Source of the DNA: Labrenzia sp. PHM005
Lineage (GTDB): Bacteria > Pseudomonadota > Alphaproteobacteria > Rhizobiales > Stappiaceae
DNA: 64,000 nucleotides
NCBI RefSeq assembly: GCF_006517275.1
Contig: NZ_CP041191.1
Location: forward strand, 3,033,001 to 3,097,000
Direction of reading: 5' to 3'
In this document: piece after piece, positions 18,449-22,930 of the stretch
Layout: each line of letters begins with the position of its first letter
How positions within the stretch are numbered: position 1 is the stretch's first letter
The notes under the pieces: generated by a model
The model's database searches: none
Told to the model about the DNA's origin: nothing
What the model saw: only the letters and a program-made list of their open reading frames with translations
Made by a program: the position numbers and the translations under genes

Positions 18449-18943
18449 TTAGGAAACAATCGGTGGACAGGAGCTGTTTTGCTCGGCGCGGCTTTTCAAG
18501 CCTTGCAGGCTCTGCAATGTGTTCGGGTTACCCGGCAGAACGAAGCTTTGCTCTAAAGCGGTGCGAACATTGTTGATCACAGCCAGATCCTGAACCACCA
18601 GCGTTTCGCACGGCGACCCGGTGAAGCGAACGCGGATCCGGATGACGCGATTGCCATTGTCAGACGGACCAAATTGCTTGTCCAAGGCCGGATTTTCGCC
18701 GGTCAACTGCCGTTCCATGACAACCATGTTCGGCTGATCCTGAATGACAATCGTTCCGCGTTCTGTGGCGCTGGCAACCAGAGCAGACCGGACGGTCATC
18801 GGATCGGCAGCAACACGTACGCTTTGCGCGCCTTCCGGCACGGACAGCTGCGGCTGATCGCCGAGAGAGGCCTGATTCGATGATCCGGACTGGCACGCTG
18901 CCAGGGTGAGCGCACAAAAACTTGCTAAAATGAGATGCCGCAT
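18449..18943 (-). CDS. Small lipoprotein of unknown function
   Basis: From the ATG at 18943 the product has 164 residues and a lipoprotein signal with lipobox LAAC (Cys 17). The rest has no family I recognise; it contains GAQSVRVAADPMTVRSALV and a C-terminal pair of cysteines (about 105 and 159) that could form a disulfide in the periplasm. A TTG six codons upstream is a weaker start. Located between an SDR gene and the 19109-22823 operon, same strand, but separated from both by about 165 bases. Confidence 0.7.
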   Translation of the reverse strand: MRHLILASFCALTLAACQSGSSNQASLGDQPQLSVPEGAQSVRVAADPMTVRSALVASATERGTIVIQDQPNMVVMERQLTGENPALDKQFGPSDNGNRVIRIRVRFTGSPCETLVVQDLAVINNVRTALEQSFVLPGNPNTLQSLQGLKSRAEQNSSCPPIVS

Positions 18944-19108
18944 CTGATCGCCTGATTCCAATAAACCGGGATAGTCAGACCGGTCTAAATCAGCTCTCTT
19001 GCAAGCGCAAGAAAACAGCCTGTGACGAGTGTCGTGTTTTCTGAGCCTGTTGCCAAATTGTACCGGAAACCCTAGGGCAGAAGGCTTAATCCCTGCGATT
19101 TCGCAGAT

Positions 19109-20587
19109 CTAAAATGTGTCTCCGGTTTTGAAACCGCCACCGCCGAAACCGCCGCCGGTCTTGAAGTCACCGCCGCCAAAACTGTCTCCGCCACCCGGCA
19201 TGCCGCCAGGACCACCAAAACCGCCTGGGCTGTTCATGCCGCCAAAACCGCCCATGGAGCGGGGCAAGCCATTACCTTTTGGAAAGGCCACCCGGCGTCC
19301 TTTGGGCCGCCGCCGTTTGTGGCTCCGCTCGGCCCGAGACCAATACTCCGCCCCGGTAATTGCACCTTTGACCAATTCGCCAAGCAGAACCGTGGTCAGC
19401 CGGTCATCGGAAAATGTTGTTTCCCAGCTGCCGTAACCCTTGGACCGGAAACGTTTGACAACATCCGCCAATTCGGCCCGGCGGCGACCGATATCGCGCT
19501 GGAGTTCCCGGTCCTGGCGGACTTCGCGGCTAACTTGTTCGATCCGTTCCCGGAAGTCCTCAATCCGCTGGACGATTTTTTCGTCCTCAGGAGACGGTGT
19601 CTCTAGAGCGGCGCGCCACAGATCGTTGAGAGCGTCTGTCTTCAGAGACGTTGCCAAATGTTCTTCGGCCTTCTGAAAATCATTGTCTTCGCCAATGGCG
19701 AATTCTGCCAGTGCGCTGGACAAGGTTTCAATTCGCCGGTCCAAATTGTCTAGTTCGGTGTCGATCGTGTCGATCTCATCACTTAGAGCCTCGATGCTGC
19801 CAACCAGGTCACTCCCAGCGGCCTCTGTCATAGCAGTGCGGCTGAGCTCAGCGAGTTTCACCTGTTCTTCCTGAAGCAATTCTGCACAGCGGGCGGCATG
19901 CTTGGCCATGCGCTCCGGAATGCCGGTCAACATGGCATAATTGGCCCTTGCATCGGTAAAGCCAATCAATCCTGCGACCCACCGGTCAAGCGAGCGGGTC
20001 AGGCCTCGCTTGTCATAGGCCGGTGTCGCGAAATTTTGGTTCCAAAGGTAGAGGAACAAAGGATCGGCTTCATAAGCTTTTCCTTTCTCCGCACGGTCTT
20101 TTTCAGAGGTTTGCGCTTTGGCATCGGCGGCTGCCGCGGTCTGTTCCGCGCGCTCAACACTGTCTCGTTGACGCTGAAATCCGGTGTCCGTTTCAAGACG
20201 GCTGTCCACGGCTTCCAGAAGATCATCCATCTGGTTTTCGGCCGAGTCCCGGTCTGTATCCAGCTTCTGGCGGCGGCTGTTAAGTTCACTCCGCTCGCTT
20301 TCGCACTGGCGCAACTGGTCTGAGAGAACCTTGTAATCAGCAGTCCGTTTTTCCAAAAGACGGCGCGCCTCTCGGGCTGCGCTGTCAAGACGCGTGTTGA
20401 GTGCGCCAGCCGCATCCGTATCCAAATGAAAACGGGCGAGATCGCGATAGGCTTCACTCTGGCGTTCTTGTAGATCCGTCAATCCACGGGTCGCACGTTC
20501 GATACGTTTGCTCAGTTCCGCTTCTTCACGGCGCAAGTCGCCAAGGGCTTGTTCGATGGTGCCAAGGGTTTGCCTGCCTGTCAGCAT
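19109..20587 (-). CDS. Coiled-coil protein with Gly-rich tail (third gene of unknown operon)
   Basis: This 492-residue protein is not recognised. Residues 1-190 and 230-390 form long coiled coils rich in Glu, Arg, Gln and Leu; between them is a more globular stretch (FLYLWNQNFATPAYDKRGL, then DRWVAGLIGFTDARANYAMLTGIPERM) around 170-225. A basic patch (RSHKRRRPKGRRVAFPKG) leads into a tail of FGG and PGG repeats (about 440-492) ending in FKTGDTF. AAGGGA precedes the ATG. It is the last of three closely spaced genes, 37 bases after the membrane protein gene. No catalytic motif is seen; a scaffold or membrane-associated polymer is a guess. Confidence 0.72.
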   Translation of the reverse strand: MLTGRQTLGTIEQALGDLRREEAELSKRIERATRGLTDLQERQSEAYRDLARFHLDTDAAGALNTRLDSAAREARRLLEKRTADYKVLSDQLRQCESERSELNSRRQKLDTDRDSAENQMDDLLEAVDSRLETDTGFQRQRDSVERAEQTAAAADAKAQTSEKDRAEKGKAYEADPLFLYLWNQNFATPAYDKRGLTRSLDRWVAGLIGFTDARANYAMLTGIPERMAKHAARCAELLQEEQVKLAELSRTAMTEAAGSDLVGSIEALSDEIDTIDTELDNLDRRIETLSSALAEFAIGEDNDFQKAEEHLATSLKTDALNDLWRAALETPSPEDEKIVQRIEDFRERIEQVSREVRQDRELQRDIGRRRAELADVVKRFRSKGYGSWETTFSDDRLTTVLLGELVKGAITGAEYWSRAERSHKRRRPKGRRVAFPKGNGLPRSMGGFGGMNSPGGFGGPGGMPGGGDSFGGGDFKTGGGFGGGGFKTGDTF

Positions 20588-20624
20588 TGGATTTCCCTTG
20601 AGCTAGAACAACGTTTCAACGGAC

Positions 20625-21551
20625 TTACCATTCCGTGATCGCTCCTTCCTGGACGCCGCTGCGCCAGGTGATATCCAATTCACCACGCAGTTTTTGGCCC
20701 AACATGCCTTTCTGGACGATCCCGTCGTCGACCTTGTCGCGCCGCACTGCATTATAGATGGTGTCCGAAACGCGCTGGCCCCATTTGTCGACACGAACGG
20801 TTTTGCCGTTTTCTTCCGAAACAATGTCGCGCTCCAGAATATTCCCGTCCGGATCAATGGCTTCAACGACAATGTAATGGTTTTCCGCATCCTGATTGGC
20901 ATCGGGGATGCGGGTGATCCCTGTTGGAACGCCTTCCCGGGAAATGATCTGTACTTCGAACACTTCCGCCAGTTTTCCGGCTAGGTCACGCAATCCGTTT
21001 TCGGCTTTGAAAGCAGCTTCGTTCTTGCCATCCGTCAGGGCGATCTTGCCATCATCTGCCAGGCGCTGGGCTTCCGCCTCAATCTCAGTGTTTTCCGTCA
21101 AGGTATCAATGCGGTCCACCAGATCCGCATAGGTTTGTGGCAACGCTTCCAGACGGGCGGCTAAAGCAGTTTCCGCGCGCTGCTGTGGCAAGGCGACGAG
21201 CATGTACCAAGCCGTTATGGCAACCACCAGAACGGCTGCAAGGCCCGCGAGCCATTTGGACCAGGTCGATCGGGAGATATAGATCATCGCCAGCGTACGC
21301 TGGAACCCGGCAGCTGGCGGTGCATAGACAAAGCGGTCGCGTTTCAGGTCTTCGACACCGGCCTTCAAGATGTGGTCCGGAACCTCGATGCCTTGTGCGG
21401 CATAGACCTTGCGCAGCCGCTCCACCATAGCAGCATCGCGCTCGTCGGCTTTGAGTTCGCGGGCAACTTGGCCTTCCTCATGGCGGAGTGTATCCACCAC
21501 ATCCATCGCCATCATCAGATCATCGAGCGGCGTGTCGGGCTGTGCAGCCAT
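20625..21551 (-). CDS. Single-pass membrane protein (DUF6384-like)
   Basis: From the ATG at 21551 the product has 308 residues: a cytoplasmic helical N-terminal region of about 98 residues beginning with LDDLMMAMDVVDTLRH, one membrane helix (about 99-121, LAGLAAVLVVAITAWYML), then a periplasmic part with a helical stretch and a beta-rich C-terminal domain containing NHYIVVEAIDPDGNILER. I believe it belongs to DUF6384, but this is from memory. It is the middle gene of a tight three-gene operon and would link cytoplasmic partners to the periplasm. An in-frame start 16 codons upstream is possible. Confidence 0.7.
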   Translation of the reverse strand: MAAQPDTPLDDLMMAMDVVDTLRHEEGQVARELKADERDAAMVERLRKVYAAQGIEVPDHILKAGVEDLKRDRFVYAPPAAGFQRTLAMIYISRSTWSKWLAGLAAVLVVAITAWYMLVALPQQRAETALAARLEALPQTYADLVDRIDTLTENTEIEAEAQRLADDGKIALTDGKNEAAFKAENGLRDLAGKLAEVFEVQIISREGVPTGITRIPDANQDAENHYIVVEAIDPDGNILERDIVSEENGKTVRVDKWGQRVSDTIYNAVRRDKVDDGIVQKGMLGQKLRGELDITWRSGVQEGAITEW

Positions 21552-21617
21552 ACGGTCGGGTCTTCCCAAACTGGCGGAGCCGGGTGGGCCCGGCTCCAAG
21601 ATGTTTCTGAGATGAAA

Positions 21618-22823
21618 TTAGAGGCCTTGCCCCTCGGCCGTCAACTTGGCGAGGCGGCGTTTGCCATCTTCAACCGCGTTGCGGATTTCTTCAGAGTTTT
21701 TCGTCGACATATCCCGCATTTCGGAAATGATTTCACGGGACTGGACCTGGAAGTTCACAACGGAATCAACCAGTTTCTTCACTGATGCTGCTGCCACTGT
21801 CGGGCCGTAACCGGCTTTTAGGGCTTCTTTTTGAACAGCATCTCCAATCTCGGCGAGGGTCTCCAGGCTCTTGTTGATGCCATCCTTCATCGCATTCAGC
21901 GTTTCGGTGGATTCGTGAAGGCCCTGCAGACCTGTGAAGGACGCGTTGAGCGCCGTCAGCACCGACTCGTTGGTGGAGAAGAAACTCACCGATTGAGCGT
22001 AAACCCGTTCCTTGGCATTGGTTGTCTGAACCAAACGGGCCATGATCACTTCAGAGGTGTTGTAACCGACCGTCAGATTGTCAGAGAGATCCTTGGCAAT
22101 CTGATAGCGCTTTTCTTCGTCCTGCATTTCCCGCAAGCGTTCGTCACGGGCAAGCTCCAGCCGCGCCTTCTGCGCTGCGTCGTCACCGGCATAACTTTCC
22201 ACTTCCGCGGATGCACCTTCCAGCGCAGCCTTAGCTGCATCCAGTTTGGAGGTGGCGACGTTCAGCAACTCAAGCGCTGTGACTTCAGCCTGCTTCAACG
22301 CCCCACGAAAATCGCGATAGGCTTCCAGGATCGTCTGTTCCCGCTCGATCTGGTCTTTTGTGGCTCTGGCGACTTCCTTGTAGGTGCCGCGAATATCAGT
22401 GAACCGGTCGGAGATCGTCCCGCGGCGCATGTCACGCCATTTGTTGGAAAGGTTCTCGGTGAAAGAAATCTTGCCGTCCGCCAGCTGATCGACCAGGGTT
22501 TTGGCGTCATCTCGGATGGAATTGAACGCGTCGGTGATTTCCTCATACCGTTCGCCAATGTCCATTTGCTGGACCTGGTTGCGGACAACTTCATTGAAAT
22601 TGGAGGCTTGGCCGAGCGTGCGGGAGATAATCAGAACCTTGTCCGGCGACAGGTCAGAAATCTGTTCCAGAAGCGCGTTGATCGGAGCATCTTTTTCCGT
22701 TTCAGGCGTGATACCGATATCCCGCAAGGTGGATAATGCGCGGTCCAGGTATTGAAGCGGTGAAAAGCTGCCGGCCGGAGCAGGCGTTGTTCCCGGGGCT
22801 GCTGGTTCTGCCGCATCTGTCAT
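21618..22823 (-). CDS. TelA-like helical cytoplasmic protein (first gene of unknown operon)
   Basis: The start is the ATG at 22823, since AGGAGGT lies 7 bases before it. The 401-residue product has a Pro/Ala-rich leader, then an all-helical body. The part around 150-360 (YKEVARATKDQIEREQTILE; TTNAKERVYAQSVSFFSTNE) resembles the TelA/KlaA family (toxic anion resistance), but the match is weak and was judged by eye. There is no membrane helix or signal peptide. It heads an operon with a membrane protein (66 bases downstream) and a coiled-coil protein. Function unknown. Confidence 0.65.
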   Translation of the reverse strand: MTDAAEPAAPGTTPAPAGSFSPLQYLDRALSTLRDIGITPETEKDAPINALLEQISDLSPDKVLIISRTLGQASNFNEVVRNQVQQMDIGERYEEITDAFNSIRDDAKTLVDQLADGKISFTENLSNKWRDMRRGTISDRFTDIRGTYKEVARATKDQIEREQTILEAYRDFRGALKQAEVTALELLNVATSKLDAAKAALEGASAEVESYAGDDAAQKARLELARDERLREMQDEEKRYQIAKDLSDNLTVGYNTSEVIMARLVQTTNAKERVYAQSVSFFSTNESVLTALNASFTGLQGLHESTETLNAMKDGINKSLETLAEIGDAVQKEALKAGYGPTVAAASVKKLVDSVVNFQVQSREIISEMRDMSTKNSEEIRNAVEDGKRRLAKLTAEGQGL

Positions 22824-22930
22824 CTGAGAGTACCTCCTGAAACCGTTCGGCATTCCCGGTCTTGTTGGTGGCCGGCTGCCGTATCAAAACATCCTTAAGT
22901 GCCGCAAGTAAGGTCAGGCTTACGTCGCAT

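Follow-up and report, generated by a model that had tools for sequence, protein, structure and literature searches.

A conserved three-gene unit encoding a helical protein with a TelA-like predicted fold, a DUF6384 membrane protein and a coiled coil with a C-terminal tip peptide

Three adjacent genes (A, B and C) of a Roseibium-like genome form a real gene unit, and the product of the last gene ends in a short conserved peptide. Tentatively, and with slightly less than even confidence, the three products are proposed to be subunits of one inner-membrane-anchored, TelA-like scaffold that would serve under stress to the envelope or from toxic agents. With a shared layout, an invariant tip and copies in a jumbo phage as well as on megaplasmids, the three orphan genes become a single candidate machine that can be tested.

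Gene unit and its conservation

All three genes lie on the minus strand of the window (the whole stretch of DNA that was analysed, 64,000 nucleotides):

21618..22823, minus strand: gene A, 401 aa, soluble and predicted to be all-helical, with a TelA-like predicted fold and without a Pfam family
20625..21551, minus strand: gene B, a 308-aa DUF6384 (PF19911) protein, predicted to be a single-pass membrane protein
19109..20587, minus strand: gene C, a 492-aa predicted coiled coil whose central block is conserved and whose tail is rich in Gly

The open reading frame of A spans 21618-22853, and the later ATG at 22823 gives 401 residues, as in most close relatives; that of B spans 20625-21599, with an ATG at 21551 giving 308 residues. 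With these starts, A and B are separated by 66 bases and B and C by 37 bases, so the reading-frame positions bear out the same-strand layout and gaps described in the initial annotation. A 301-aa frame opposite gene A was presumed to be mechanical and set aside.

The genes are adjacent, with order and strand kept, in 41 of 61 related genomes, while 18 carry none of the three; of the remaining two, one has A on one contig and C on another, and the second has a weak C-like match only. Order and strand are identical in 78 of 80 database loci, and in the two exceptional loci the contig stops just past B. Of the database matches of B and of C, the best 120 were listed for each. This arrangement is far beyond chance because it is kept in 78/80 loci. 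The same order and strand are present on 11/11 plasmids found with A, and the check proposed at the outset, that the trio should travel together, thus gave a strongly positive answer. The stop of A and the start of B overlap as ATGA in nine of the 80 loci. Gene A is the best conserved of the three, with 61-64% identity to the six gammaproteobacterial alignment rows. Pairwise distances across 39 loci correlate (A-B, r 0.93; A-C, r 0.89; B-C, r 0.90); co-inherited genes show correlated distances even without contact. Among 397 genomes sampled across the order, 111 carry DUF6384, 109 of them with matches above the family cut-off.

A strict EcfG pattern was found upstream of A in 0/76 cases, a loose EcfG pattern in 2/76 (3.5% in shuffles) and an RpoH-like pattern in 2/76 (0.7% in shuffles); these patterns are about as rare as in shuffled sequence. 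A sigma-70 scan of the region returned seven sites against 2.1 expected, with none of them within 240 bases upstream of A. Terminator-like sites numbered one, against 6.4 expected.

The three proteins

By curated Pfam and NCBIfam cut-offs, no family passes for A, B or C except DUF6384. Profile searches against PDB sequences returned no convincing relative for A (best E 0.65), B (best E 0.0053) or C (best E 0.0019, over a coil stretch), and no PADLOC model matches A or B at E <= 1.

The initial annotation called A TelA-like, a description that holds only for its low-confidence predicted fold and finds no support in Pfam. The AlphaFold2 model of A is all-helical and of low confidence (mean pLDDT 65). 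In a Foldseek search, five of nine viral matches at E <= 0.001 were named TelA, tellurite or toxic-anion resistance proteins, with TM-scores of the model to the named TelA proteins of 0.22-0.43. In its predicted fold, which is of low confidence, A resembles phage TelA proteins. No TelA (PF05816) Pfam match was obtained for A at E <= 1, and TelA is not among the 25 Pfam families, out of 42, that were listed for 18 A members. Comparison of profiles with hhalign was not significant with either a shallow alignment (probability 2.7%, p 0.017, 76 columns, Neff 1.8) or a deeper one (probability 5.7%, p 0.0067, 68 columns, Neff 2.9), both A profiles being shallow; both runs set one N-terminal stretch of A against TelA. 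Neither C against TelA nor A against C yielded a profile match. The sequence of A does not place it in the TelA family.

The same observations bear on an unlikely alternative, an operon simply for tolerance of tellurite or cationic peptides, in which A would be a very divergent TelA and B and C would be accessory. It would fit the predicted-fold matches, the shared N-terminal stretch and the StiP gene (a tellurite-like stress protease) that lies upstream of the trio on two megaplasmids. Against it stand the missing Pfam match, the low profile probabilities and relative G034, which carries a true TelA alongside the trio. TelA was found in one of the 61 relatives, with 16 above a cut-off of 100 in a phylum sample, and PF05816 was not found in the trio's own genome. 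Very improbable is a pore-forming module, in which A would have a ClyA-like helical fold and insert into the membrane with B; no hydrophobic membrane-inserting stretch of the ClyA type was found in A, whose best 19-residue mean hydropathy is 0.87.

Protein B is by its profile match a full-length member of DUF6384 (E 3.2e-125; 417.8 bits against a cut-off of 25; positions 2-308 of 308). Two parts of it can be placed:

21189..21251, minus strand: predicted transmembrane helix of B, residues ~101-121, mean hydropathy 2.3
20628..20966, minus strand: predicted C-terminal outer beta domain of B, residues ~196-308, ending Thr-x-Trp

The helix is the only strongly hydrophobic stretch in B. In 28 loci chosen from the 80, lysine and arginine are in excess on its N side in 25, with two opposite and one tie; by the positive-inside rule, the N-terminus is probably inside. 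Prediction supports the single-pass protein with cytoplasmic and outer parts that had been suggested. Within B, the phage copies retain the outer beta domain best. A PDB fold search with B found no match at E <= 0.001; in a second look the top rows were helical bundles over residues ~120-196, with scant coverage of the beta domain. Assignment of B to type II secretion GspM (PF04612) was rejected, at 17 bits against a cut-off of 27.8.

Three parts of C are distinguished:

19883..20065, minus strand: conserved central block of C, residues ~175-235, from the alignment
19112..19303, minus strand: Gly-rich tail of C, the last 64 residues, with 27 Gly and 8 Phe
19112..19132, minus strand: C-terminal tip of C, FKTGDTF

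Nine residues of the central block are invariant (D175, L177, F178, Y180, L181, Y191, D201, L220 and P224). The best NCBIfam matches of C are SMC models, the SMC_prok_B match reaching 34.2 bits against a cut-off of 567.35, with its best stretch at positions 329-485 of 1181. Identity as SMC/Rad50, judged by ATPase heads and a match to the whole model, was rejected; the weak match is read as a coiled coil. This match and the 27 glycines among the 64 terminal residues agree with the original description of a coiled coil with a Gly-rich tail. In PADLOC, whose models carry no cut-offs, C matched LmuB (33.1 bits, E 8.6e-9) and 14 other models; these matches are likewise read as probable coiled-coil similarity.

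The tip follows the pattern F-[KRSTED]-T-G-x-x-F at the very C-terminus in 76/76 complete C genes, a descriptive figure because the pattern was written after viewing the alignment; 2/78 C genes were omitted from the count, with no stop after them in the locus. The remainder of the tail aligns poorly, and shuffled tails give a tip rate of 0.0. A second tip-like copy, FKTGGGF, begins 11 residues upstream of FKTGDTF. Written as a DNA pattern, the tip has seven matches in its own genome against 11 for a reversed control; two of the seven end in TGG, which does not encode a stop, and the K/R-T-G form occurs in C only. To judge from its sequence, the tip looks like a docking peptide, and it offers a concrete candidate binding motif.

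Megaplasmids, phages and neighbouring genes

The initial annotation mentioned neither the tip nor the plasmid and phage copies. The trio-bearing plasmids measure 0.32-1.39 Mb, and copies also lie on complete chromosomes (L042, L068 and L092). The megaplasmid of Methylorubrum extorquens AM1 bears the trio. Jumbo phage phiR1-37 (262 kb) carries A and B together with a C that matches weakly. For g192, an E-value of 0.0069 is fairer than 1.2e-5, which was computed for a set of two sequences; one set of E-values for C in L148-L154 was computed with a profile containing these sequences, and independent values were computed separately. The phage adjoins the Pseudomonas megaplasmids in both the A tree and the B tree, which were printed without support values. 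A single cyanophage carries B and C but lacks A; further viral contigs gave nothing or phiR1-37 again. Outside the 80 loci, the strict tip pattern is present in two of 13 C copies (11 plasmids and two phages) and a looser pattern in ten, the exceptions being L153, L156 and L158; one of the ten, L159, was judged from its printed tail.

These replicons suggest another reading, that the coiled coil C and the helical A form a framework, fixed to the membrane through B, which positions and organises replicons of very large size or a phage factory. It would suit the large plasmids, the RNA polymerase beta' gene ~6 kb upstream of the trio in phiR1-37, the SMC models that head the matches of C, and the dCTP deaminase gene close to the trio on three Pseudomonas megaplasmids. 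The reading is nonetheless quite improbable: copies lie on ordinary chromosomes, the conserved outer domain of B would be superfluous for a DNA scaffold, only DUF6384 passes the curated cut-offs, and phiR1-37 is stated, in the accessible part of the source, to be without a chimallin homologue (PMC10299810).

Among other neighbours, a BON-LysM gene occurs near the trio in 7/80 loci, including six of ten titled Gammaproteobacteria, at varying positions. It is absent near the trio in alphaproteobacterial loci except L086, and the trio's own genome has one LysM-like match, far from the trio. No fourth gene common to all groups was seen beside the trio among the neighbour families checked (10 proteins).

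Proposed assembly and known systems

In the scaffold favoured here, B would anchor the assembly in the inner membrane and extend its C-terminal beta domain into the periplasm, and A (helical, TelA-like) and C (a coiled-coil spacer) would lie in the cytoplasm. The flexible Gly-rich tail of C would bear one or two copies of the peptide, the last at the very C-terminus, and the tip may dock on a partner, most likely A or B. Its probable task would be bracing or mending the inner membrane, or passing on a signal from the periplasm, when the cell meets envelope stress or toxic agents. Gene adjacency, the ATGA overlap, the distance correlations, the matching A and B trees and the invariant tip count for an assembly. 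The stress role is suggested by the TelA fold matches, the BON-LysM and StiP neighbours and the Listeria lmo1967 phenotype: in the accessible part of a paper that cites another, disruption of this TelA/YaaN-like gene is reported to make cells more susceptible to nisin and tellurite (PMC12791056). Counted against the proposal are the lack of a TelA Pfam or profile match, the pLDDT of 65, the low TM-scores, the scarcity of BON-LysM in alphaproteobacteria, promoter patterns near those of shuffles and the cyanophage without A. A bolder extension, which we consider doubtful, is a new class of trans-membrane scaffold common to chromosomes, megaplasmids and large phages. In it, the repeated docking peptide of C would recruit a TelA-like protein to a membrane receptor with an outer sensor domain, and large phages and megaplasmids would thereby protect or organise the host envelope.

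The statement in the initial annotation that the set matches no described system stands: B belongs to a family without an assigned function, a full-text literature search on the name DUF6384 found no paper, and no published description of the trio was found in the parts of the literature searched. There, neither the trio surrounding this DUF6384 member nor the tip of C is described.

Several known systems share features with the trio. PspA/IM30-type membrane-stress scaffolds contain a coiled-coil protein acting beside a membrane partner, as C would beside B; PspA, PspB and PspC are not among the Pfam or NCBIfam matches of A, B or C at E <= 1. The disordered tail of SSB protein ends in a short invariant peptide with a terminal Phe. 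The tail of C ends likewise, by analogy only, whereas the tip sequence differs and no DNA-binding family was found in C. telA is found in small operons, and to our knowledge the mechanism of TelA-like proteins is unsettled. For comparison with a telA operon, 50 kb of IncP plasmid R751 were examined and contain no annotated kla gene. The Listeria telA-type gene sits with an XpaC-like gene, according to the accessible part of the source (PMC12791056). Members of the TelA family (PF05816; KlaB, YaaN) are like A in being soluble and helical and in length, and the low-confidence predicted fold of A matches phage TelA proteins, whereas the partners in the trio differ, being a DUF6384 protein and a tipped coiled coil. 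The trio may explain the membrane linkage of TelA-like proteins.

Conservation of the three-gene unit

The initial annotation described a tightly packed, same-strand set of three genes separated by 66 and 37 bases, and the ORF listing recovered the same genes and gaps:

21618-22823, minus strand, gene A (401 aa)
20625-21551, minus strand, gene B (308 aa; DUF6384, PF19911)
19109-20587, minus strand, gene C (492 aa)

The genome containing the window is 6.2 Mb in size, and the best named homologues of the trio proteins come from Roseibium/Labrenzia, which marks the host as a Roseibium-like alphaproteobacterium. A 301-aa frame opposite A (window 21831-22736, plus strand) is likely a mechanical antisense frame. 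Downstream of C lies a gene for a 170-aa protein (window 18449-18961, minus strand), which has a lipoprotein-like start and no Pfam match at E <= 1.

Among 61 related genomes, A is present in 42, B in 41 and C in 43; the whole trio is found in 41 and no member in 18. In all 41 trio-positive genomes, the listed coordinates show the genes as direct neighbors that share contig and strand. A is split into two pieces in genome G045. The fragmented assembly of genome G001 carries A and C on separate contigs, with A at a contig end and B not found. The sole match in genome G015 is a weak partial C (23% identity, E 3e-7), which we take for a chance coil. When named genomes were scanned with B and the best 80 of at least 120 relatives were retained as loci, order and strand were kept in 78, and in the two exceptions (L086 and L097) the contig ends directly after B. 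The A stop overlaps the B start as ATGA in 9 of the 80. These loci range from Stappiaceae and Devosia to Chromatiaceae and to one MAG each of Methylocystis, Desulfobulbaceae and Pirellulaceae. Co-occurrence of the trio, proposed as a check in the initial annotation, is thus borne out in both comparisons.

DUF6384 occurs in 111 of 397 genomes in a sample of the order, and a phylum sample of 398 genomes searched with A and B yielded each in the same two genomes only; the family is therefore frequent but scattered among genomes near Roseibium and seldom found in the wider sample. One 713-aa “eukaryotic” protein with DUF6384 (P0303), 74% identical to C, is probably bacterial contamination read as a single gene.

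Predicted architecture of the proteins

Protein A is the best conserved of the three and is modelled, with low confidence (pLDDT 65), as entirely helical. Nine viral predicted structures match this model at E <= 0.001, comprising five named TelA, tellurite or toxic-anion resistance, two unnamed and two tail fibre proteins. The earlier suggestion that A is TelA-related (PF05816) at best holds only for this low-confidence predicted fold; sequence tests did not confirm membership. PDB fold matching gives similar scores to ClyA-like toxins and to engineered helical proteins, which we read as a generic long-bundle effect.

Prediction supports the annotation of B as a single-pass protein, with one membrane helix and the N-terminus probably inside (25 of 28 chosen loci agree). 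Its AlphaFold2 model (mean pLDDT 84.5) proceeds from weak N-terminal helices through a long membrane-spanning helix to a three-helix bundle and a small beta domain, and no PDB fold match reaches E 0.001. In an alignment of 18 divergent B proteins, invariant or near-invariant residues fall mostly in the outer part, and a Thr-x-Trp lies near the C-terminal end. In phage B proteins, the Pfam match likewise spans mainly the outer part.

The alignment of C displays a conserved block flanked by two coil-like stretches, followed by a variable, mostly Gly-rich tail (15-55% Gly over the last 60 residues). The very C-terminus carries a short tip, F-[KRSTED]-T-G-x-x-F, in 76/76 complete C genes, and 32 of 78 have an additional, looser copy upstream. 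This fixed tip, set on a free tail, suggests a docking peptide. Plasmid and phage tips diverge (e.g. WDTSDRF, FSSSDSF), and 3 of 13 fall outside the looser pattern.

Gene neighbors and mobile copies

No fourth gene common to all groups was seen beside the trio, and promoter patterns around it were uninformative. In 7 of 80 loci (L074, L078, L081, L086, L087, L088 and L115), which include 6 of the 10 titled as Gammaproteobacteria, the trio has a BON-LysM (Kbp/YgaU-like) gene nearby; it may be upstream, downstream or reversed. DUF533 is near the trio in two loci. StiP is upstream of the trio on two Pseudomonas megaplasmids (family confirmed on one), which are alike in gene order and so may count as one case. 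These neighbors give no more than a hint of envelope or toxic-agent stress; Roseibium loci have no stress-linked neighbor.

By tblastn, A was matched on 11 of 72,556 plasmid records, and the stretch around A holds A, B and C in order on all 11; independent profile scores were obtained for seven. Among 50,697 phage records, A was matched only in the two of jumbo phage phiR1-37 (42% identity). Here g191 is DUF6384 (E 4.7e-26), while g192, positioned as expected for C, is very divergent, matches C weakly (E 0.0069) and has a doubled FSSSDSF at its end. In cyanophage Dfl-JY45, whose record gave no A match, both B (E 1.5e-47) and C (E 9.1e-45) are present.

L161, 7983-18657, and L162, 8714-18044: megaplasmid trio flanked by a StiP/peptidyl-tRNA-hydrolase cluster on one side and a dCTP deaminase gene on the other
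L147, 5971-9802: trio of phiR1-37
L156, 6978-9706: B and C of Dfl-JY45

The phiR1-37 copy clusters with the Pseudomonas megaplasmid copies in both the A and B trees, which are midpoint-rooted and reported without branch support values.

Proposed role and relation to known systems

A and C may form a cytoplasmic layer that would be tethered to the membrane by B. The tip of C would dock on A or B, and the outer domain of B could sense or brace the periplasmic side. The trio likely protects the inner membrane under stress.

The name DUF6384 was not mentioned in the full text searched, mostly without subscription papers. The initial annotation could not match the trio to a described system; likewise, partial coverage of the literature on TelA together with XpaC, phage shock, TerB/PspA, StiP/TerD or KlaB, and on YgaU, phiR1-37 and pMPPla107, excluding the phiR1-37 genome paper, contained no description of it, and no counterpart was found for the assembly as a whole. 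The modelled fold of A points to TelA-type proteins. A passage in PMC12791056, citing another paper, reports that disruption of Listeria lmo1967 (TelA/YaaN-like) leads to higher nisin and tellurite susceptibility, a precedent that would support a stress role of the trio by analogy, not as proof.
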